DNA from: a virus
Virus record (IMG/VR): IMGVR_UViG_3300009155_000237
Coordinates: 1 to 25,041 of that record
DNA: 25,041 nt
Reading direction: 5' to 3' (one strand)
Shown: positions 2,180-23,562 of the stretch, piece by piece
How the letters are laid out: each line of letters begins with the position of its first letter
Position numbering within the stretch: position 1 is the first letter of the stretch
Notes under the pieces: generated by a model
Database searches by the model: none
The model's input: the letters and a program-made list of their open reading frames with translations, nothing else
Told to the model about the DNA's origin: nothing
Made by a program: the position numbers and the translations under genes

Positions 2180-2539
2180 TTATTTCTGAGCCTCTAGCTT
2201 GTAGTTACGGTAGTATTTTTTGTAGCCAGCAATTATGGTATTTTGTTGTACAACATAGCGGCGCATCTCAGCCGCATTGATTGCAAGAGTTTCATAGCCT
2301 GCAGGTGTCACAGCAAATAGTACAACTGGACCACCACTGGCAGCCATTTCTTTTATCTTAGCTTCGATATTGTTTGGTGTGAGAACAATCCACTCCACAT
2401 CGTTTTGTGTGGCTGGCATTACCGTTGGTAGAATAAGTTCTGGGCGATCAATCAGAACTGGCTTATCAAATACCTTGGGTGTTGAATTGCAACCCGCCAA
2501 CAATAGTGTAGCGCATAGCAGTAAGATTTTATTTTGCAT
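2180..2539 (-). CDS. Predicted outer-membrane spanin lipoprotein (Rz1-like)
   Basis: 119 residues. It begins with a lipoprotein signal: a short basic start, a hydrophobic run and the lipobox LLAGC with the lipidated Cys17. The mature part (PELILPTV, WIVLTPNN, VLFAVTPAGYETLAINAAEMR) matches, from memory, a lipoprotein common in T4-like marine phages. It overlaps by 11 bases the end of a gene for an N-terminally anchored coiled-coil protein, the classic Rz/Rz1 arrangement. The pair would fuse inner and outer membranes at the last step of lysis. The spanin role is inferred from topology and gene order rather than a firm family match. GGAG lies 9 bases before the ATG. Confidence 0.72.
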   Translation of the reverse strand: MQNKILLLCATLLLAGCNSTPKVFDKPVLIDRPELILPTVMPATQNDVEWIVLTPNNIEAKIKEMAASGGPVVLFAVTPAGYETLAINAAEMRRYVVQQNTIIAGYKKYYRNYKLEAQK

Positions 2540-3002
2540 TTGCAGCCACTCCCTTAGGCATAAGAGAAGAAATTAATTCTGGACATATTGCATTTTTCAT
2601 AGTACCAGAACGCTCGTCTTTTGTCAAGGGTGAACCTGTAGCAATCGCATTACAACGAAACGCTGCTTTTGTGCCACGGTTGATTTTCATTTGAACATCA
2701 TCAGCATTTGCGATAGACGCGGCTGTTAGTCTTGGCGCTGCAACCTTCGAGCGAAGGTCAGATGCTTCCTGTTGTGTCTTGATAAAGTCTTTGGTTATTT
2801 CGGTGTTGATTTCCTGCATCTTCTGGATATCTTCATTCTGCCTATCCATCTGTGCTTTTTGCTGATTGATAACACCTTCCATGCGCTGCTGAACTTCCGC
2901 AGCAGCCTCTAACTTACCTTCTAATGCTTGAATGTAGAAATACCCACCTGATACGATGGAAAAAAGAATTGCCGCTATTGCGACTTTGATACCTATACCC
3001 AT
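2529..3002 (-). CDS. Predicted inner-membrane spanin (Rz-like)
   Basis: 157 residues. A single N-terminal transmembrane segment (about residues 4-26) is followed by a long charged coiled coil (about 27-90, rich in Glu, Gln, Lys) and a C-terminal region with Cys118 and Cys141. This is the type II topology of i-spanins, with the body in the periplasm. The next gene encodes a small lipoprotein and starts inside its 3' end. The gene's own ATG overlaps the stop of the gene upstream (TAATG), so translation is probably coupled. An unrelated coiled-coil membrane protein is possible, but the pairing makes a spanin the best reading. Confidence 0.7.
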   Translation of the reverse strand: MGIGIKVAIAAILFSIVSGGYFYIQALEGKLEAAAEVQQRMEGVINQQKAQMDRQNEDIQKMQEINTEITKDFIKTQQEASDLRSKVAAPRLTAASIANADDVQMKINRGTKAAFRCNAIATGSPLTKDERSGTMKNAICPELISSLMPKGVAANAK

Positions 3003-5786: not shown

Positions 5787-7817
5787 TTAGTCTCTGAGTG
5801 GTGGGTTCATTAGGATTGGCTCTTTGCCACCCTTCATTCCCTTTGCTTTATCACCGTGTGTCTCACATGTCATAGACTTTTTACCTTCAGTGCAAGAGCA
5901 TTTACCCTCTTTCATTGAAGACATTTGCTTATTAGCTTTAGACTGCATAACCTGCATTTTCTTCTGAACGATTGTCTTCTGAATCGCAGCCTTCTTTGCA
6001 GCCAATTGCTTTGCCATTGGATTCTCAGTGGCTTCATCCATACGACCATTAGCAGCAAGTCTCTCTTTGCGTCTTTGTGCCGCATAATCTGCTCCATTAG
6101 GTAACTTCTTTTTTGGCTCAGTCCAATTGTGTGCCTTCACTATTTTCTCTTTTTGACCAGGACCAACATCGACAACCTTATACCCAATGTCTTTTGTTGT
6201 CTTCACTTTAGTCATGGTCTTAGCTTCAGCAAATCCTGGATCAGTCTCTTCTTTAGTAAGTTTACTGATTGCTTTATCAACGCCTTTACGACGATTCATA
6301 AGCTTGCCTGTATTAGATTTGTCGCCTTTACCAAGAGCATACTGACGAGAAGCAATGTCTCTTACTCCTGCTAGAGCATAATTACCAAGAGTATTTTTTG
6401 ATAGTTCATCAACAGATTCTACTTCTTCAGTAGCAGGAACCTTTACCTTGTGGCCGTAATACTTACCGTAAGCCAACTTAGAACCCTTTTCACGATTGGT
6501 GCGCTTACGAAACTTATCAGGATCAGATGGTTGATTACCTTGCATTTGTCTACCGGCCTTATAACCATAAGATGCAAGAGTTCCTTTCGAGATTTCATCA
6601 ATCTGAATCTCTTCTTCCATATTCTTATCACGATCAGCACGATAGGCTTTCATCTTTGCAGACTTAGCATCCTTAGACGCCTTCTCTTTCTTCTCCTGAT
6701 CCATACCCTTATCACGGAACTTATTAGCCATTCCAGCATACTTCTTGAAGATAGGACCAGAACGACCCTGAGCATCACCCATAGCTTTCTTAGCAGCCTT
6801 GTGTGCTGCGCTGTGGTATGTATCAGTTGATAGCTCATCAATTTGAGTGTCTTCTTTAGCCAATTTACCTACAGCTCTTTTGATGCCAGCTGATCTCTTG
6901 TTTATAGTATGAATGTGTGGATCCAACTTAGCCGCAGTGCCATCGGTACTGCCGGCGTTGTAACCAGCCTTTCCGAGACTTGCTGCTGATTTGTTTACAT
7001 AAGAACCAAGAGTAGCCTTTGAAAGCTCGTCTACCTGCTCGGCTTCTTCCTTAGTTAGTTTGTCGGTAGCCTTAGCGATACCCGCGCGGCGCTTCCATGA
7101 CTTGTTGAACATCTTATCAGCGGTTGCATCATCCTTCTTACCTTGCTGGTAATTTGAATAGTCGCCCTTCTTCATCTGATCCTTAACCGCATTGGCACGA
7201 TCAGCATAACGACCAGTTGCAGCAGACTTAGTTGCCACATCATGTGAAGCCTTCTTAATATACGAACCCATGGTCTTCTTTGATAGCTCGTCTACCTGCT
7301 CGACTTCTTCCTTGTGTGTAGGAAGGCTCTTTGTCTTTGTACCAGCAAACTTACGAAGCTCTGAAGTCTTCATAGAAGCCATGCGGTTGATTGCGCCGCC
7401 CTTCTTGCCACCATCATACTCACCGCGCTGTGTAGCAAGTGCTGCGCCAGCTGCATGTTGCTGAGCCTTTGATACGGCCTTCTCGTCAACCTGCTCGACT
7501 TCTTCGAACTGCTTACGATCATTGCCTGACATCTTTTCGCGACCACGAATCTTATCAGCCACAGATGGATTCATTCTGCTTAGGTACTGACTATCTCTGT
7601 TCTTAGCACCGACAGCCGCCGCAGCTGCGTTCTTCTTTTCCTTATTAGCAGGATTTCCTTCATCAACAATTTCTTCCTTACGGAGCATCTTGAAATCTTG
7701 CCCATCAATCTTGCCGTTGTGGTTCTTGTCGATTTTGACTTGACCACCCTTGAGTGCTTCGCTTACCGCACTGATTAGCGAATCGCTAAGACCAAATGCT
7801 TTCTTATCAATAGACAT
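5787..7817 (-). CDS. Large basic repeat protein, predicted internal head polyprotein
   Basis: 676 residues, very rich in Lys, Ala and Met, with no membrane segment. Residues 30-41 form an EF-hand-like loop (DKNHNGKIDGQD). From about residue 105 a module recurs. An acidic link ending QVDE, QIDE or SVDE (Glu112, 177, 264, 328, 408, 471) leads into DELSKxTLGSY-like helices and a basic end such as KRRAGIAKATDKL. The C-terminus has a Cys/His cluster (Cys640, Cys642, Cys651, His654). Similar proteins occur in many T4-like phages without known function. The Val/Ile-Asp-Glu links resemble T4 gp21 prohead-protease sites (Leu/Ile-X-Glu), so I infer maturation into basic peptides that lie with the DNA. 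AAAGGG precedes the ATG. Confidence 0.72.
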   Translation of the reverse strand: MSIDKKAFGLSDSLISAVSEALKGGQVKIDKNHNGKIDGQDFKMLRKEEIVDEGNPANKEKKNAAAAAVGAKNRDSQYLSRMNPSVADKIRGREKMSGNDRKQFEEVEQVDEKAVSKAQQHAAGAALATQRGEYDGGKKGGAINRMASMKTSELRKFAGTKTKSLPTHKEEVEQVDELSKKTMGSYIKKASHDVATKSAATGRYADRANAVKDQMKKGDYSNYQQGKKDDATADKMFNKSWKRRAGIAKATDKLTKEEAEQVDELSKATLGSYVNKSAASLGKAGYNAGSTDGTAAKLDPHIHTINKRSAGIKRAVGKLAKEDTQIDELSTDTYHSAAHKAAKKAMGDAQGRSGPIFKKYAGMANKFRDKGMDQEKKEKASKDAKSAKMKAYRADRDKNMEEEIQIDEISKGTLASYGYKAGRQMQGNQPSDPDKFRKRTNREKGSKLAYGKYYGHKVKVPATEEVESVDELSKNTLGNYALAGVRDIASRQYALGKGDKSNTGKLMNRRKGVDKAISKLTKEETDPGFAEAKTMTKVKTTKDIGYKVVDVGPGQKEKIVKAHNWTEPKKKLPNGADYAAQRRKERLAANGRMDEATENPMAKQLAAKKAAIQKTIVQKKMQVMQSKANKQMSSMKEGKCSCTEGKKSMTCETHGDKAKGMKGGKEPILMNPPLRD
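6243..7493 (-). repeat. Tandem DELSK-module repeats within the head protein gene
   Basis: Six imperfect copies of a 63-87 residue unit start at Glu112, 177, 264, 328, 408 and 471 of the protein. The DNA also repeats: GCTCGTCTACCTGCTCG-like stretches recur near 7025 and 7290, with diverged copies near 6410, 6835 and 7485. A seventh copy lies outside the gene, in the short protein at 13727-14113. Copy-number change by recombination is expected. Confidence 0.75.
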
Positions 7818-7818
7818 T

Positions 7819-8055
7819 TTAGTTACCCTTTCTAGTAGTCATATAATCGTGGACTGTTGTTACATAATCTTCAGCCATTGTGATCTTGCTCTGTACCCAA
7901 GCTTCTAGCTGCATATCGTCTTTCATCATATCAGCAAGAGCGGAGGCGCGCTGTGCAATTATCTGCAACTGTGCGCGGGCCATCTGCCCTTCGTAGTCCT
8001 TTTCTTCTTTGATAGGGCCAAAACGAATTGTGTTTTCTAAGCTACGATATGACAT
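7819..8055 (-). CDS. Conserved small phage protein
   Basis: 78 residues from the ATG at 8055, which has AAAGG five bases upstream. An in-frame extension further upstream lacks a ribosome site. The sequence opens MSYRSLENTIRFG and continues with AQLQIIAQRASALADMM and LEAWVQSKITMAEDYVTTV. I recognise this all-helical pattern from small proteins, and from segments of repeat-type head proteins, in T4-like phages. Its start overlaps the 3' end of dps and it ends two bases before the repeat head protein, so it is probably a head-assembly or internal protein. No catalytic residues are evident. Confidence 0.68.
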   Translation of the reverse strand: MSYRSLENTIRFGPIKEEKDYEGQMARAQLQIIAQRASALADMMKDDMQLEAWVQSKITMAEDYVTTVHDYMTTRKGN

Positions 8056-8066
8056 AATTACCTTTC

Positions 8067-8504
8067 TTAGCTCTTCTTTGTCGCTCTCAACATCCAAGCG
8101 TGTTTGTTATGAATATCAATACGGTCTTGTAGGTAGTTTTCAATTCCTACCGCACCAGCAACCTCCGCTGCTTTCTGTGCAGGAACAAGCGTAGCAATAA
8201 CTGCATTGTTATCATCGTACAAACGATTTAACATACCAGCAGCATTAGGAACTGTTAGCTCATCCTGAATGGTTGATAGCTCACCAAAACGCTTGAATGA
8301 ACCTGGCGCATAAACATTCAATGCGCGAATGTGTTCTGCAAGGCCATCGGTAGCTTCAAACGCATCGGTGTATAGAGTTTCAAAAAATTCATGGTACTGC
8401 GAGAAGAATGGACCTTCTACGTTCCAGTGAAAGTTATGAGCCTTCAGATAAAACGCAAAGGTTGTAGCGAGTGATTTCTTGAGTAGTTCTGAAAGCTCAT
8501 CCAT
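8067..8504 (-). CDS. dps: Dps/ferritin-like DNA-protection protein
   Basis: 145 residues forming the four-helix ferritin-like pattern of Dps. Ferroxidase-type ligands are present: His26 in NFHWNVEGP, His38 in YHEFF, and Asp53/Glu57 in DGLAEHI. The C-terminal helix ends RIDIHNKHAWMLRAT, also family-like. Dps dodecamers oxidise and store iron and shield DNA from hydroxyl radicals. In a phage this could protect replicating or packaged DNA, or host DNA during takeover. Its ATG overlaps the stop of the membrane protein upstream (TAATG), and it sits inside a late block of predicted head proteins. Family is clear; role in infection is unknown. Confidence 0.9.
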   Translation of the reverse strand: MDELSELLKKSLATTFAFYLKAHNFHWNVEGPFFSQYHEFFETLYTDAFEATDGLAEHIRALNVYAPGSFKRFGELSTIQDELTVPNAAGMLNRLYDDNNAVIATLVPAQKAAEVAGAVGIENYLQDRIDIHNKHAWMLRATKKS

Positions 8505-8803: not shown

Positions 8804-11602
8804 TTATTCTCGTTTACCAGCAAGCGCCTTACGAATCTCTTTGAAATGTGCTGGTGTCTTTGTGACCTTATCTGGACCATCGGCTGCATCGCCAACAATC
8901 GGCTTGTCAACTGAATATTTAGCTATACTAATAGGTTCTTCATATACCTTACGATATCTGAAGTTACTGCCGTCTTTCACGCGAATCACTTTATGGGATG
9001 CATGGCGGGCCGTAATATCTTCTGTTCTTGAAACTCTGAGATCCTTGTTTGATGGAGATCCTTCAGAACCTGGCTTACGCATATGCTCGCCAGAACCATT
9101 CTTGATACGGTTCTGTTTAGCGTGAATATTATCCCATAGTCCACGCTTTTCGTCAACGCTTGTTTCTTCGCTACGGCAGTTCCACTTACGCAATGCTAAG
9201 GCTTTACGAGATGGCTCACCGTTTGGTTTCTTCATCGGTCCGTCAACACCACTCATGCGAGCGCAGAATGATTTACGACGACCAGCGGCTTTTGATCCAG
9301 CTTTTAATTTAGATGGTGGTGTAGTAACTGGGGCTTGCAGATTACCACCAGTTTCTCTATTATAGCGATCTCGGCCCTTTTGAGTTAACCCACCGGTTGG
9401 ACTCTTATACCCGCCATCTTCAGCTAGATCCTCATCCAACTTAGCAGCGAAGCCGCCAGCAATAAATGAGTCCACGCGATTATATGCGCGACTGACATTG
9501 TTTGATTCAGCCATTTCACGAGCGAACACCTGATTCAAAACACCTTCAGATACACCAGACTTCTTTGCTTTCTTGCGTAGATCAGGATTTGGTTGACTAT
9601 CAAGTTCCTTATTCACTACGTTATAACGAACGCGAGAATATGTTGCAGGATCTTGCGTAGTCAAATCAATAAGCTTGTCTAATAGATCAGCAAGGTTCTT
9701 ACGAAGCTGTGGGCTTTGCAAAGCAAACTGCTTGCTACTACGCAACGCACGACGATAACCTTGAAGCTCGGTTGTGTCAACAAGGCCGAGACGCAATAGA
9801 ACATCCATCTTTTGATTCAGACGACGCGACTGATTTGGATCTTCCGAATCTTCCTTTACTGCTGGCTTCTTCTTTTCATTAGCTTGTGTGATACCAGGAG
9901 GTGCATCAGAATCATTTGGATTCCAATTGCGAGCATTGAATGATACCTCATCAAGCTTTCTGCCACCAAGAGAAATTTTTGGCTTGTCTTTTGGAATACC
10001 ATGTGACAAAACATTTCTAAATGCAGTCAAACTCTTACTAGCTGCAACGGTTAGCTTTTGTTTATCAGCTGGCAAACGTGTTCTATCAAATAGATCCAAC
10101 ATCTTTCTCGCATCAACCACAGAAATCTTTACCTTGTGCTTATCACCAAATACCACCTCATGCTCACCGCGAGCGATGATAACCTTACGCATTTGATAGA
10201 TGATATTGGTATCGCCAGCATCTACAGCATCGGCTGCGCTTGAACGTGCTTCGGTACGCATACGAAATTGAGCAAGACGCTTACCACCACCATGTGTTGT
10301 ATGCTTTGGATTTGGCGCTGAACGATCAACCGTTGTAGGGTCAACATCTGTTGAAACAATTTTTGTTGCGTCAATATGCAATGGGCTATCATGTGCGACA
10401 TCAGCTTTTGATTTTTCCCAATCTGATACCGAAATCTTCTTTGCTTTTGCTTGCTTGATATCTGTTGCTCTGTCTTTTGCAGAACCTTCTTTGCCTTCTA
10501 GGAACATGTGAAATGCCTCGTTTGTAGATGAGCGAGCCTGCGCTACAGAAGCCTGCGCTTTGCTACGGATACGTGGAAGAATGCGTGTGGCTATTCTATT
10601 GATAGCACCCTTTAGTGATTTACCAAAACGCTGTGTCAATGCATTATCAACTGAGATGCGCTGCGAACGTGATAGCGCATTATAATCTAGGTTCTTGCGG
10701 CCGCTTGCGCGAGCGCGAAGGATCATAATAGCAGCCTTACGCGCACGAAGGCGTAGGCGTTGCCCAGCTGGCATCTGCTTTGATTTAAGCTTACGCAGAC
10801 GAGCAAGACGCTTGCTCATAGATTTCATCTTTTGTGAACGCTTCTGGCGTTGCTGAGATGTTAGGCCTTCATGAACATTCTTTGGTTCATCATCATACGC
10901 AATCATATCCAACATCATAGCATCTTCATCGCGAAGATCCAGCTCACTCATATCGGTTAGCTTGTCAAGATATCTATCAATCTCAGCGTCAGATGGTAGT
11001 GGAATTTCTTCCTCAGCAACTACGGATTCATTCATTGTTTTTCCTAGACGCGATTGGATGATGCGGATCATTTGCTTTACATCTGCATCGGTAAGATGTT
11101 CCGACATAGCATCTCTGACCTTAGCAAAGTCACCAGCTTGGGCCCACTTGCGAATGTCGGATGCGTGAACGCCATCAAGATCACCAACGCGAGTGTTTAC
11201 GATAGAGTGGCGAGAATGAACCTCGATCTTATCGTAGTTGTAATCTGTTCCGTTGTACTTATCAACAAACGCTTTTATTTCTGCAACTCTATCGTCACCC
11301 AATACGATATGCATGGTATCATATTTACCAGACAAACTCTTTAGTACGCCAACCATTGATGGATTAGAAATCGGTGGCACATCAAATAGTTTCTTATGAC
11401 CAGGAAACATCTTATTCAGGAATCGGATCTTTTCCTGTGGTGTCAGTGGATCTTTCTTCTTATTGACGGTGCGCGAAACAAAAACTTTGGCATCGCTGTG
11501 TGTTGATTTAGCAAGCTTGATAACTGCGTCAACTAGGTGCGCGTGTTCTTTGTGTGGCGGATTGAAACGACCAAGCGGTACGATAACGATAGATTTACTC
11601 AT
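8804..11602 (-). CDS. Nucleotidyltransferase / basic / DUF6321 multidomain protein
   Basis: 932 residues from the ATG at 11602, which overlaps the preceding stop. Residues 1-185 are a cytidylyltransferase-like domain. GRFNPPHKEH (His17, His20) is the HxxH nucleotide-binding motif, with Glu in place of the usual Gly, and VHASDIR (146-151) recalls the ISSTxxR motif of NMN adenylyltransferases. Residues about 250-355 are highly basic and helical. Residues about 595-665 form a further helical block (LLRLGLVDTTEL). Residues about 735-810 match DUF6321 (GGLTQKGRDRYNR, RRKSFCARMSG, LRKWNC), followed by GLWDNIHAKQNRIKNGSGE, a block I know from marine phage head-associated proteins. It is probably a virion-associated enzyme. 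LDE and VDE tripeptides (549-552, 816-818) are possible prohead-protease sites. Confidence 0.78.
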   Translation of the reverse strand: MSKSIVIVPLGRFNPPHKEHAHLVDAVIKLAKSTHSDAKVFVSRTVNKKKDPLTPQEKIRFLNKMFPGHKKLFDVPPISNPSMVGVLKSLSGKYDTMHIVLGDDRVAEIKAFVDKYNGTDYNYDKIEVHSRHSIVNTRVGDLDGVHASDIRKWAQAGDFAKVRDAMSEHLTDADVKQMIRIIQSRLGKTMNESVVAEEEIPLPSDAEIDRYLDKLTDMSELDLRDEDAMMLDMIAYDDEPKNVHEGLTSQQRQKRSQKMKSMSKRLARLRKLKSKQMPAGQRLRLRARKAAIMILRARASGRKNLDYNALSRSQRISVDNALTQRFGKSLKGAINRIATRILPRIRSKAQASVAQARSSTNEAFHMFLEGKEGSAKDRATDIKQAKAKKISVSDWEKSKADVAHDSPLHIDATKIVSTDVDPTTVDRSAPNPKHTTHGGGKRLAQFRMRTEARSSAADAVDAGDTNIIYQMRKVIIARGEHEVVFGDKHKVKISVVDARKMLDLFDRTRLPADKQKLTVAASKSLTAFRNVLSHGIPKDKPKISLGGRKLDEVSFNARNWNPNDSDAPPGITQANEKKKPAVKEDSEDPNQSRRLNQKMDVLLRLGLVDTTELQGYRRALRSSKQFALQSPQLRKNLADLLDKLIDLTTQDPATYSRVRYNVVNKELDSQPNPDLRKKAKKSGVSEGVLNQVFAREMAESNNVSRAYNRVDSFIAGGFAAKLDEDLAEDGGYKSPTGGLTQKGRDRYNRETGGNLQAPVTTPPSKLKAGSKAAGRRKSFCARMSGVDGPMKKPNGEPSRKALALRKWNCRSEETSVDEKRGLWDNIHAKQNRIKNGSGEHMRKPGSEGSPSNKDLRVSRTEDITARHASHKVIRVKDGSNFRYRKVYEEPISIAKYSVDKPIVGDAADGPDKVTKTPAHFKEIRKALAGKRE

Positions 11603-12776
11603 CTTTCGGTGCCGCCTTTCTGAATGAACCCTGAGCAAAGTTCTGCATACTGAATACGCGGCGCTTGACTAGCTTTGCAGTACCGTGCTTACCGAGAAGA
11701 ACATAACCTTCTGGATTTGTCTTTACCAACGCACCAAACTCATTCTCAAAATATCTACGAATAGGTTGATATGTGTCTAGCTCGTCAATAATCTTGTCCT
11801 TGATATCAGCAAGCTTGTTGTGAACATCAAGGACATTTGTGATTAGGTTTTTATTGGATTCAATTTGGCTGGTAATGGTATCATATACCACCTGCTTTGA
11901 AGCTTTACCTTTTTCACTAGCAGCCTTGTCAATGAACTTCTGAAGCTTCTCTTTCATATACGCAAGGAAACCAGCATACGACTGATCGGTGTTATTACGG
12001 ATCACATAGTTGGCATATGCAAGAAAATGTGGATTCATCTCTTCGGATGAAATGTATGCAAACGCATCACCCGGTATAGATGCAAGGAGCTTATCGACCT
12101 CTGTGATATGGGCCTTCAAATGACCAACATGATCCAACGATGGCGCATCAATTGGCATCAGGAACACATGTGAGTTTTTCTTCATGTCACGCGCTTGAAT
12201 TGTCACGCGACTACCAGATGCATTGTACTTAGTATGCGGTGCGAATCCAACAACCGACTTAGCAATCTCTCTACCAAGCACCGAGTTCACAGGTACCGCA
12301 TTGATAACTGTGTTTGGTTTGAACAACCAGTGCTGGACACCTTCAATGTCAACCTTCTTCAGGTCAACCTTAGCGAACATCATATCGCCTTGAAGGATCT
12401 CATTCTTGTTGTTTGTAATGTAGGGGAAATATTCTAGAGCGAGCTTTAGTTTAGCTACGAGCCCTGGTGCGTGGCCGTGATTACGCTCAATGTCGTCTAC
12501 GGTGAAATTGACCTTAGGATCTTTGTTGAAGATTGATTTGGTCGCTACAAAGAACTTACCATTCTGATAGCCATAGAATACGCTAGGAGCACCGTCGATC
12601 TTAGTTTGATTTACAGTTTCAGGAATGCCCTTTATGAGGTCATGGAAGTAACCACTGATCTTAGCAATGGACTTCTTTCCAGAAACATAAATCTCGTCTT
12701 CAATGTGGGTATAGTGCGACTTGTCTTCCTCAGACGAAAACGCAGCTTCTACCACGAAGCTCTTGAATCTTTTCAT
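11595..12776 (-). CDS. KxDG ligase-like protein (DUF6267 type) with capsid-targeting-like N-terminus
   Basis: 393 residues from the second of two tandem ATGs (12776), 4 bases after AGGAG; the first ATG is only one base from it. The block TKIDGAPSVFYG carries Lys60-x-Asp62-Gly of the mRNA-capping/nucleic-acid-ligase superfamily (numbered from the first Met). FFVATKSIFNK and ILQGDMMF follow in the expected order. I recognise this as a protein common in T4-like phages, listed as DUF6267. The catalytic role is inferred from KxDG and unproven. The first 11 residues, MKRFKSFVVEA, align without gaps to the T4 internal-protein targeting sequence MKTYQEFIAEA, which is cut after Glu10. It heads a late operon behind TATAAATA at 12852-12845. 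Confidence 0.75.
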   Translation of the reverse strand: MKRFKSFVVEAAFSSEEDKSHYTHIEDEIYVSGKKSIAKISGYFHDLIKGIPETVNQTKIDGAPSVFYGYQNGKFFVATKSIFNKDPKVNFTVDDIERNHGHAPGLVAKLKLALEYFPYITNNKNEILQGDMMFAKVDLKKVDIEGVQHWLFKPNTVINAVPVNSVLGREIAKSVVGFAPHTKYNASGSRVTIQARDMKKNSHVFLMPIDAPSLDHVGHLKAHITEVDKLLASIPGDAFAYISSEEMNPHFLAYANYVIRNNTDQSYAGFLAYMKEKLQKFIDKAASEKGKASKQVVYDTITSQIESNKNLITNVLDVHNKLADIKDKIIDELDTYQPIRRYFENEFGALVKTNPEGYVLLGKHGTAKLVKRRVFSMQNFAQGSFRKAAPKDE

Positions 12777-12844
12777 CATACTCCTAGCGGGATTGGCGTA
12801 CCCTAACCGCGACCATGCAGGACTGCCTTAGCTTTCTGCTCGTC

Positions 12845-13726: not shown

Positions 13727-14113
13727 TCATCTATCCAACTTCTTAACTGCAAGCTTGATGCCTGCTTTTCTAGCTCTCATTTTATCCGCAGGATCTTTAC
13801 CAAGTTCCTTGTTCTTGCCTCTGTAATGACTTGGAATACCAGCCTTGTGACTAGGACCAGTTGCATCAACTTTACCAAGCTGATTGTCTGCCTTGTAAGC
13901 ATATGAACCAAGTGTCTTTCTTGATAGCTCATCTACCTGCTCGTAGTTTTCTTCAATGTACTTTTCGGTTAGCTCAGGGAAATTTTCCATGACATAATCA
14001 AGAAAGTGTTCTACATCAAAATCAATGTCCATTTCGGTATCATTTACCTGCTCAGCGGATTCATTGATAGGAACAATTGGTCTACGACCATTTGGTGTTA
14101 GAATATATGTCAT
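13727..14113 (-). CDS. Short DELSR-repeat protein, single-module relative of the head polyprotein
   Basis: 128 residues. After an unrelated N-terminus (MTYILTPNGRRPIVPINES) and an acidic helix (about residues 28-56) comes one full copy of the module repeated in the 676-residue protein: YEQVDELSRKTLGSYAYKA at about 57-75, then a basic end RARKAGIKLAVKKL. INE at 16-18 and VDE at 60-62 resemble prohead-protease sites, so the basic half could be released as an internal peptide. It lies between the HAD phosphatase and the nuclease-like gene in a late run. It is probably a virion-associated protein; exact function is unknown. Confidence 0.68.
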   Translation of the reverse strand: MTYILTPNGRRPIVPINESAEQVNDTEMDIDFDVEHFLDYVMENFPELTEKYIEENYEQVDELSRKTLGSYAYKADNQLGKVDATGPSHKAGIPSHYRGKNKELGKDPADKMRARKAGIKLAVKKLDR

Positions 14114-14129
14114 GCTTATACCTTTCTTG

Positions 14130-14738
14130 TTATCCGTTGTAACGTGTTATTCTTCCATCCTCATGGATTAGGAATGCTTCAAAATTAATCTTTGGAAACT
14201 CGGTATGCAGTTCAATGAACTTATCAAGGTTGGCCTTAGCGTCATCAAACATTCTAGCTACCTGATACTTACCAGCTTTTAGTTGGTCACGAACAATTTG
14301 CTTTTTGGCTTCTGCACCTGGGGCTTTAATATTGCCTGCGCGATACACATGCACCTGCGTGATATCAAAGCCATACTTTTTAAACGTATCAAGGAACAGC
14401 TTCTTATCGTCTAGATCCGCGCGAGCGGTACAGATGATAATGCGCTTGTTAGGATGCGCACGGAATCTGCTAATCATTTTCTTAGCCGTCTTGAATACAG
14501 TCTCAATTGGCTTTGCGGTATCAGCGAACACCTTAGATGATCGGAATTGAGCGAAGTCAAATTCCTCACCGTCTTTTAGCTTGTACACATTGAACTCGGC
14601 TGGTGTTAATTTCTCAACAACCTTGCCATCTTTTCTGACGAGGACTTGTGTCGTGGTGCTGAATAGCGTGTCGTCAATGTCAAACACCGACAGACTACCA
14701 GAAACATCCTCAGCTATGAACTCGCGGAATTTTAGCAT
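14130..14738 (-). CDS. HAD-superfamily phosphatase with capsid-targeting-like N-terminus
   Basis: 202 residues. The HAD nucleophile motif FDIDDTLF places Asp20 and Asp22. IICTARAD is motif II, and RMFDDAKANLDKF near the C-terminus supplies the acidic motif. Closely similar proteins are frequent in T4-like phages. Substrate is unknown; polynucleotide 3'-phosphates or nucleotides are possible. The first 11 residues, MLKFREFIAED, share EFIAE at the same positions with the T4 internal-protein leader MKTYQEFIAEA, cut by prohead protease after Glu10. The catalytic domain begins just beyond that cut. The ATG lies only 7 bases past a TATAAATA box, so its late transcript may be leaderless. Confidence 0.85.
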   Translation of the reverse strand: MLKFREFIAEDVSGSLSVFDIDDTLFSTTTQVLVRKDGKVVEKLTPAEFNVYKLKDGEEFDFAQFRSSKVFADTAKPIETVFKTAKKMISRFRAHPNKRIIICTARADLDDKKLFLDTFKKYGFDITQVHVYRAGNIKAPGAEAKKQIVRDQLKAGKYQVARMFDDAKANLDKFIELHTEFPKINFEAFLIHEDGRITRYNG

Positions 14739-14823: not shown

Positions 14824-15687
14824 CTAGCCCAATTTTCTGTAGCCCAGCAACTTGTTTGCTGGGTAGTAAGCTACGCTAACCTCTTTGTTCTGGTTACCAC
14901 CAAGAACCTTGATGTATCTAACACCATCAACAGTTTCCTCACCGACATAGAACCCAACATGGCCTGCTGAGCTATTCTTGCCTCGTGAAAACACCGCAAT
15001 ATCACCTTCTCTTGGATATGTAGTAGGAATTCCGTACCCTAAAAAGCTGCGAGCTAATAGAGAACCTGTGCCCTGGTATCCAGCCTTATTTAATACCGCA
15101 TTTGCGAAAGCTGCACACCATGGAATACGAACTGGGTCCACCTTCATATCATTACCAGCTGATAGTAGCTTGGTAAGATCGGAACGGTCGTTTCTTACAT
15201 TTAGCCCTTCCCACTCTCTCGCAATCCGCACTGGTTCTGGTGCAAACACAGGGCGTGGATTTTCACGGCGCATAGGTTGTTCTGGATGCGACTGAGATAC
15301 ATTGGTGTTACCCTTAGGAAGCTCGGTATTCAAATCAATAACAGCCATTACCGGTTTAGCTTTAGGCTTCTTATGCTCTACCGGTGGCGCATCTAGCTTT
15401 TGCCAACCAGCAAAAAACTGTGATGCTTCGGCTCTCTCCCTATCCTGTCTGAAGAAATTTGCAGGCGTGTCGTCATCATATGTAGACGCAACAATAGCAG
15501 CTGCGGCTGGGACTACTCTCTTTGCTTGCAACTGCTTGCAGAATTTTGCAAGATGTGCGTATCTGTCTTGTACGCTTAGGTTACAGTAGCGTTCCGCGGT
15601 CTTCGCTGAAACTTTCTTCTTGGGTTCGGCTTCTGCGGTGTTACATAAGAACACCAGCATGAGTACAGCCATGGTTGTTTTTAACAT
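14824..15687 (-). CDS. Secreted NlpC/P60-like peptidoglycan peptidase (TIGR02594 type)
   Basis: 287 residues. A Sec signal peptide (hydrophobic residues about 5-17, likely cut after AEA at 20) is followed by a low-complexity linker rich in Lys, Pro and Glu to about residue 155. The catalytic domain follows: PWCAAFANAVLNKAGYQGTG with Cys191, PREGDIAVFSR, GHVGFYVGE with His243, then VLGGNQ and a final LLGYRK. This is the TIGR02594 pattern as I know it. It should cut wall peptides from the periplasm without needing a holin. It is distinct from the GH19 endolysin at 22.9 kb. Roles in lysis timing or in blocking superinfection are possible. AGGAG precedes the ATG and a terminator follows the gene. 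Confidence 0.85.
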   Translation of the reverse strand: MLKTTMAVLMLVFLCNTAEAEPKKKVSAKTAERYCNLSVQDRYAHLAKFCKQLQAKRVVPAAAAIVASTYDDDTPANFFRQDRERAEASQFFAGWQKLDAPPVEHKKPKAKPVMAVIDLNTELPKGNTNVSQSHPEQPMRRENPRPVFAPEPVRIAREWEGLNVRNDRSDLTKLLSAGNDMKVDPVRIPWCAAFANAVLNKAGYQGTGSLLARSFLGYGIPTTYPREGDIAVFSRGKNSSAGHVGFYVGEETVDGVRYIKVLGGNQNKEVSVAYYPANKLLGYRKLG

Positions 15688-22927: not shown

Positions 22928-23545
22928 TTATGCTGTGAATATCTCCAGGGCAGCAGCATAATGAGATTTACGATCTTCAAGTCCAATGGTACCACCATTG
23001 ATTTTTTTAGTTACATTAACAACGTCACCTTTATCAGCCCAATTGTTTAGTTCACGCGAGTCCCAGAACCATCCAGCACTCCACGCAGCTCCTTCTTCTG
23101 TACTCAACCACTCGGTTGCTTCTTCTAGTGGCCACCCCATGTCTTTGGCAAAAGCTTCATAATTTGATTTGCCTGTCAATTGGATAAGCCCACGTCCGCA
23201 GTAGCGATACCCATCTCCTGATGCTTCATCACCGTTACCCATGCGCGAAGCATAGACACGATTGGCAATTTTCTGTGGATTCTTAGCGAACGGTGTTGGA
23301 TCTACTCCACGAAAATACTTAGGGAAAATTACCTTCAAGCGATCTGCTGAATAGTTTAGATTTTCCTTGATCGTTCTTAGTCCACCAGATTCATGGCCTA
23401 CCTGAGCAAGGAACATTGAGATACGTTGAGGGGTGTTGATTTCATAAAAATCCATAACCTCATTTAGAGGTTCCACATATTTCTGAATAACATCTTCGCC
23501 CGTATCTTCGAAGAACTCATTCAACTGTTCGAATGTAATAGCCAT
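22928..23545 (-). CDS. Endolysin, glycoside hydrolase family 19 (chitinase-like muramidase)
   Basis: 205 residues from the ATG at 23545, with AAGGAG five bases upstream; an upstream GTG overlaps that site. The catalytic region has FLAQVGHESGG (Glu52) and ENLNYSA, then NRVYASRMGNGDEASGDGY and GRGLIQLTGKSNY, all hallmarks of phage GH19 lysins. No signal peptide or wall-binding domain is present, so release depends on the holin encoded next. It hydrolyses the glycan strands of peptidoglycan. Confidence 0.93.
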   Translation of the reverse strand: MAITFEQLNEFFEDTGEDVIQKYVEPLNEVMDFYEINTPQRISMFLAQVGHESGGLRTIKENLNYSADRLKVIFPKYFRGVDPTPFAKNPQKIANRVYASRMGNGDEASGDGYRYCGRGLIQLTGKSNYEAFAKDMGWPLEEATEWLSTEEGAAWSAGWFWDSRELNNWADKGDVVNVTKKINGGTIGLEDRKSHYAAALEIFTA

Positions 23546-23562
23546 AGTCACTCCTTATTGAG

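Follow-up and report, generated by a model that had tools for sequence, protein, structure and literature searches.

A basic repeat protein of a T4-like phage as a candidate head-cargo polyprotein for a gp21-type prohead protease

Results

The window, by which we mean the whole stretch of DNA that was analysed (25,041 nucleotides), covers positions 1 to 25,041 of the IMG/VR virus record IMGVR_UViG_3300009155_000237. It contains an open reading frame (ORF) for a protein of 676 aa, for which the translation gives a mass of 74,011 Da and a pI of 9.7 (Table 1). A preliminary description of this DNA had already noticed the repeats in this ORF, and it stands with small corrections.

Table 1. Features at the polyprotein locus, in positions of the window.
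Feature	Position	Strand	Remarks
Basic polyprotein, predicted prohead-protease substrate	5787..7817	minus	ATG start; phrog_5709 E 1.4e-9
Leader, aa 1-53, one EF-hand-like loop DKNHNGKIDGQDF	7659..7817	minus	sub-threshold in Pfam; like the leader fused to gp21 in L015
Module aa 113-177, DUF3008 (PF11450)	7287..7481	minus	Pfam E 1.5e-12; VDE before, Glu112 codon 7482-7484
Module aa 178-264, DELSK/TLGSY type	7026..7286	minus	relative L006 lacks this exact unit
Module aa 265-328, DELSK/TLGSY type	6834..7025	minus	two-helix hairpin predicted
Module aa 329-408, LSTDTYHSA type	6594..6833	minus	sequence
Module aa 409-471, ISKGTLASY type	6405..6593	minus	sequence
Module from aa 472 (LSKNTLGNY type) and basic C-terminal part	5790..6404	minus	sequence
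92-aa ORF (WVQ domain)	7819..8097	minus	homologous to C-terminal domain of G002 gp68-place polyprotein; L256 E 9e-12
Dps/ferritin-like protein	8067..8504	minus	Pfam Ferritin E 8.3e-22; phrog_3636
944-aa cytidylyltransferase with DUF6321 and GLWDNIHAK	8804..11638	minus	LAE before DUF6321 (Glu740), VDE before KRGLWDN (Glu830)
DUF6267 protein	11595..12779	minus	N-terminus MMKRFKSFVVE|A, capsid-targeting-like
128-aa protein	13727..14113	minus	acidic pre-sequence to YEQVDE (Glu62, codon 13928-13930), then one DELSK module
Polynucleotide-kinase-like protein	14130..14738	minus	phrog_415 E 6.8e-9; N-terminus MLKFREFIAE|D, capsid-targeting-like

The modules are introduced by acidic links. The six link glutamates named in the preliminary description (Glu112, 177, 264, 328, 408 and 471) are all there, and Glu53 is a seventh. 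From Glu53 to Glu471 the link tripeptides read VDE, VDE, VDE, VDE, IDE, IDE and VDE, which agrees with the earlier reading of two exact IDE links and Val at P3 in the rest (2/7 and 5/7). A leader link had been given as VVE, where the sequence is in fact I-V-D-E. Segments between links are 59–87 aa long. Six modules of 63–87 residues had been proposed; five bounded segments of 65, 87, 64, 80 and 63 aa bear this out, and the sixth is open-ended, running from residue 472 for 205 aa up to the C-terminus, with a repeat unit of about 50 aa. The units had also all been taken for the DELSK type. This holds for the later ones, which are of the DELSK/TLGSY type or similar, but the first module (113–177) is DUF3008 (48 bits in Pfam against a gathering cut-off of 24, the first module being the only member). 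From residue 54 onward the segments have a pI of 9.2–10.0, and the leader (1–53) has a pI of 5.7.

Full-length AlphaFold2 prediction gave a poor model (mean pLDDT 51, pTM 0.24) of helices without a common fold. It places the link residues Glu112, 264 and 328 outside helices and Glu177, 408 and 471 inside them; the latter three speak against cutting, but carry little weight in a model of this quality. A single module with both of its links was modelled as a two-helix hairpin (mean pLDDT 70), with no secondary structure in the preceding link; a fold search with this module model found no match in the PDB.

Relatives often differ from the polyprotein by whole modules. Exactly module 178–264 is missing from one (L006). 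Another (L008) has neither the DUF3008 module nor the sixth unit, and carries insertions, one of them a unit with VDE at both borders and another starting at LDE. Hence, gains and losses often involve whole cassettes. At least 549 stretches of IMG/VR contigs have a confirmed DELSK module. When the species-genome collection was scanned for the DUF3008 module, there were 491 pattern matches and no confirmed relative. Two small proteins at other loci (L016, 7853–8107; L017, 9595–9936) end in the EF-hand-like leader motif with no [LIV]xE before it and are exceptions to the link rule; the one in L016 also has CWKGY.

A 58-kb IMG/VR contig (G003) carries a 100% identical polyprotein together with T4-type genes resembling gp20, gp21, gp22 and gp23. 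The same phage therefore encodes a gp21 protease (Peptidase_S77, E 2.2e-35). We also found gp21 in contigs of 155 kb (G001), 141 kb (G002) and 55 kb (G005), and the profile matched none of the four shorter records among the eight searched, all four of which are fragments. In T4, gene 68 occupies the place between gene 67 and gene 21. The order in G002 is gp20, a gp67-like gene, a homologous polyprotein (474 aa), a small ORF, gp21, gp22 and gp23. In the phage studied here the polyprotein does not lie between the portal gene gp20 and gp21/gp22; about 40 kb separate it from gp21, and another protein sits in the gp68 place, which counts against a role as head cargo cut by gp21. When another polyprotein in the gp68 place (L253) was compared with phage records by tblastn, one weak match was obtained.

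For a survey of gene place we collected up to 80 loci each by the module, the leader and the WVQ domain of the 92-aa ORF. The survey covered 279 loci; among the matches listed, these contain 349 ORFs with one of the three, or 264 after deduplication. At least 39 of the 264 lie no more than three ORFs from gp21, all 39 on the same strand, and many loci stop at contig ends. At about 200 genes per genome roughly 8 would be expected by chance (a rough estimate), and the observed count includes close relatives, G002 at least twice. Of those listed, 31 are two upstream of gp21, five are three upstream and one is one upstream; one lies downstream as a fusion with gp22, and one is a gp21 fusion itself.

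Some relatives have the module fused with the gp22 scaffold (L108; T4_CASP in Pfam, E 1.8e-19; phrog_237 E 3.7e-25) or with gp67-like proteins (phrog_1064 "prohead", E 1.4e-6 in L108 and 2.1e-8 in L067; the Pfam GP67 match of L067, E 7e-4, is under its cut-off), and the EF-hand-like leader is joined to the gp21 protease (L015; Peptidase_S77 E 3e-26). Since three parts of the prohead core occur in such fusions, the core is the likely site of action. The polyprotein ORF itself matches none of the gp67, gp68 or gp22 models in Pfam and the PHROG profiles. In L015 (1472–2428) the leader is on the C-terminal side of Peptidase_S77, and a calcium link to targeting or activation of the protease is possible.

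T4 gp21 cleaves after Glu in L/I-X-E (passages in PMC9026906). We counted the motif in 43 distinct modules. They come from 24 loci, some of them of this phage, that had been fetched without using the link motif, and seven profile hits that started late were dropped. P1 is Glu in 43/43, P3 is Ile in 21, Leu in 14 and Val in 8, and P2 is Asp in 38, Asn in 3, Gly in 1 and Ser in 1; because the modules share common ancestry, these counts are not independent. An exact L/I-X-E is present in 35/43 family links (the other 8 have Val) and in 2/7 links of the polyprotein ORF (the other 5 have Val). The ORF contains [LIV]-x-E eight times, once in the leader (Glu20) and otherwise at the links. That seven of its eight sites are links, and that P1 is invariant in the family, means that the links exceed chance. 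In loci fetched by the motif, only 1 of 106 modules deviates from the link pattern.

Two features of the link sequences count against cutting by gp21. One is the Val at P3 in five of the seven links of the polyprotein, and the other is P1′, which is mostly Leu in the family. The bond cut in T4 gp22 is reported to be Glu-Ala (among the passages of PMC9026906). All 17 gp23 sequences listed have [LI]xE 21–27 aa before FDPVLIS, and the presumed N-terminal site of gp21 has Ile at P3 in 20, Leu in 10 and Val in 5 of 35 distinct N-termini. By analogy with T4, both would be cleavage sites. The five with Val include this phage (G003) and its relative G001; hence Val is maybe a lineage trait. The eight family links with Val come from this phage (four; L124, L202), its near relative L127 (two), L132 and L136. 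Val may thus be a minor, lineage-bound variant of a site that otherwise follows the T4 rule. A strict coupling of Val at the gp21 site with Val in the polyprotein was rejected: in G005 the gp21 site has Ile, yet its polyprotein (L010) has Val links.

The same motif is found before unrelated domains. We assembled 72 distinct copies of KRGLWDNIHAK (phrog_16028), from 80 of 552 confirmed loci and from earlier loci. Among the matches listed, four of the 72 are at an N-terminus, and 52 of the other 68 have [LIV]xE no more than four residues before the domain (background elsewhere in the same proteins, 7.7%); three have MxE, and the 13 with neither count against gp21 cutting. The closest 46 sites listed show ten different P2 residues, with Leu at P3 in 25, Ile in 15 and Val in 6. 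What stands upstream varies from acidic links to other domains and short N-termini (MINFKQYLEE, MIKFKDFLEE), which we take to resemble the T4 capsid targeting sequence. [LIV]xE also precedes CWxGY in 15/21 cases (background 11.2%) and DUF3008 in 4/4 (8.4%; three from near relatives). For ACYHKVK the fraction is only 4/12 (8.6%), weak and on the negative side. From GLWDN, CWxGY and DUF3008 it follows that the motif marks the borders of otherwise dissimilar domains.

GLWDNIHAK also occurs as a free-standing gene. In seven of eight phage records, six of them labelled Autographiviridae, the gene starts 2–8 residues before the domain; the S-RIP2 gene is longer (171 codons), and the eighth record has no annotated gene at the domain. 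A Peptidase_S77 search was positive for S-SZBM1 and S-CREM2 and for none of these eight. The gene lies between the scaffold and capsid genes in HTVC168P and CRP-804. Limnohabitans phage DC33 (L365, PQ492659, 39 kb) is labelled Inoviridae yet has a GLWDNIHAK gene, which we otherwise met in tailed-phage records; the label seems doubtful.

Several neighbours of the polyprotein resemble it or may share its destination. The 944-aa ORF has [LIV]xE directly after its enzyme domain (Glu209) as well as before the later domains, and looks like a second predicted polyprotein. The Dps/ferritin-like gene overlaps the 92-aa ORF beside the polyprotein, and its product could be a DNA protector carried as head cargo. 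The short N-terminal targeting pattern of the DUF6267 and polynucleotide-kinase-like proteins is absent from the polyprotein ORF. In G001, 3/184 ORFs have such N-termini (0.42 expected), namely the homologues of both neighbours and the gp68-place protein; the same three are found in G003 (3/71; 0.15 expected), and G005 has 1/54 (0.10 expected). The absence of the pattern from the polyprotein ORF and from all ORFs of G002 (0/163; 0.43 expected) counts against the head-cargo reading.

If the modules survive the protease, they should be poor in internal sites. Cutting the sequences at acidic [LIV]xE was discarded as a test, being circular (the same segmentation of control ORFs gave a ratio of 0.93). 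The final test used 117 module bodies delimited by HMM envelopes, compared with shuffled sequences. These contain one [LI]xE where 17.2–17.5 are expected (ratio 0.06), and 21 of the mirror motif Ex[LI] where 18.0 are expected. There are also few [LI]xD (19 where 42 are expected; 0.45), which counts against the argument; together with kinship, it means that part of the [LI]xE depletion comes from shared columns. The 24 gp22 sequences have 342 [LI]xE against 171 expected (2.0), the mature part of gp23 (11 sequences) 12 against 22, and 150 control ORFs 778 against 616. T4 destroys gp22, and the mature part of gp23 survives. The near-absence of [LI]xE from the modules and its excess in gp22 therefore make the modules resemble pieces that survive the protease; judged by sequence, they look like protease-proof cargo.

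Relatives of the neighbouring enzyme have been reported in virions. The enzyme domain of the 944-aa ORF is homologous to S-SZBM1_140 (E 6e-23) and S-CREM2 ORF154 (E 5e-24), whose N-termini are MRFRQFIIE|A and MKNFSSFLTE|A. According to passages of the respective papers, these two and an NMNAT-like protein of S-SCSM1 were detected in virions by mass spectrometry (PMC9146016, PMC10665884, PMC9602691), with a warning of possible carry-over in two of the three. S-CREM2 ORF160 was found in virions with seven unique peptides (passages in PMC10665884). It has two modules in common with the P-TIM68 polyprotein (E 1e-22 and 5e-13), which also contains a DELSK module; no DELSK module was seen in ORF160. 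A likeness between S-SZBM1_139, the virion protein beside the cytidylyltransferase, and the S-SKS1 polyprotein was not significant (E 0.005) and was set aside.

Discussion

Our results suggest, with a probability of roughly 0.77, that the ORF encodes a head-cargo polyprotein that a gp21-type protease cuts into surviving basic proteins. We infer packaging, cutting, retention, ejection and DNA binding as follows. The polyprotein would be made as a single chain and would enter the prohead core via its leader and an affinity for core proteins. The prohead protease would then cut after Glu at the [I/L/V]-x-E links and so set free one DUF3008, five DELSK-like units and a basic tail, as small helical proteins of basic charge. 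These would resist more cutting and remain with the DNA in the mature head, and some would probably accompany the genome into the host, like the internal proteins of T4. That the modules bind or condense DNA is a guess from their charge. The preliminary description had read the ORF as a substrate of the prohead protease, and the sequences favour this reading: the link motif fits the T4 rule and precedes unrelated domains, core proteins carry the same parts as fusions, some relatives sit in the gp68 place and gp21 is present in the same phage.

Modules fused to gp22 and gp67-like proteins, and relatives at the gp68 position, would also be expected of a sacrificial scaffold, a core chain that gp21 dices into peptides that exit the head before DNA packaging. 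This is the fate of T4 gp22, gp67 and gp68, which are cut to small peptides, most of them presumably exiting (passages in PMC9958956 and PMC9026906). Such a scaffold is unlikely here, given that [LI]xE is at 0.06 of expectation in the modules against 2.0 in gp22, that the related GLWDNIHAK domain has a gene of its own in phage records in which no Peptidase_S77 was found, and that a module-sharing protein, S-CREM2 ORF160, was detected in mature virions (passages in PMC10665884).

One could also argue that nothing is cut at all, and that the acidic links serve a multidomain protein as flexible linkers or as the starts of module helices. P1′ and the following SKxTLGSY are indeed conserved along with the link, the helix of the module model begins three residues past Glu, and three of the last six links are helical in the full-length model. 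Nevertheless, [LIV]xE precedes unrelated domains and follows unrelated upstream sequence, with ten P2 residues in the GLWDN set, where short targeting-like N-termini can replace the link before the same domain; we consider an uncut protein very unlikely. Least probable, and hardly credible to us, is cutting by some other protease, which could for instance act once the protein has been ejected into the host, or by self-cleavage. Such processing has been proposed for polyvalent phage proteins and their metallopeptidase domains (passages in PMC5512222), but no peptidase family matches the polyprotein ORF, and its link motif is the one at the presumed gp21 sites of the same phages.

The proposed head-cargo polyprotein has partial counterparts. 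T4 IPI–III and Alt are packed into the prohead core, where gp21 trims them after L/I-X-E, and some are ejected (passages in PMC9026906 and PMC9958956). Core packing and gp21 trimming are proposed for the polyprotein too, but the T4 proteins each lose terminal peptides, whereas one polyprotein chain would yield several proteins, and in place of their short targeting peptide there is an EF-hand-like leader. With T4 gp67, gp68 and gp22 it has in common the gene place in some relatives and the module fusions to gp67-like proteins and gp22; these T4 proteins are degraded, whereas the polyprotein modules are almost without internal sites. Polyvalent proteins are multi-domain, mosaic and thought to enter the host with the DNA (passages in PMC5512222). 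The polyprotein is likewise a multi-domain mosaic, but it has no matched enzyme or peptidase domain and would be cut in trans by the prohead protease; the disparate activities of polyvalent proteins are not seen, as Pfam matches only DUF3008 and a sub-threshold EF-hand. In phiKZ and SPN3US many head proteins are cut after a short X-E motif, some repeatedly (passages in PMC10052503 and PMC9026906); those cuts remove propeptides, whereas cuts in the polyprotein would separate products.

Judging by the relatives compared here, many related phages seem to follow this polyprotein strategy too. We lean, with some caution, towards a general system of cargo cassettes in T4-like aquatic phages, in which small basic proteins stand behind [I/L/V]-x-E plugs and are released in the prohead by gp21. 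The cassettes would hang on core proteins, on targeting peptides or on the EF-hand-like leader, at least one of the proteins has a separate gene in T7-like phages, and cargo would be added or swapped by recombination. Our literature search found no description of such cargo polyproteins, subscription journals being mostly outside its reach. The libraries give neither function nor processing for phrog_5709 and DUF3008, which match the polyprotein ORF, or for DUF6321 and phrog_16028, which match the 944-aa neighbour. Head cargo is a testable role for these families. If our reading is true, polyproteins can serve to fill a phage head, and the sequences of uncultured phages can be searched for cargo by means of the cut motif.

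Other genes in the window

Also on the minus strand of the window are a CHAP-domain protein (14824–15687, E 1.8e-8) and a candidate GH19-type endolysin (22928–23551, E 6e-5, slightly below the cut-off). Two adjacent small ORFs (2180–3002, minus) look by eye like a spanin pair, one with an N-terminal hydrophobic stretch and the other with a lipobox-like LLAGC.
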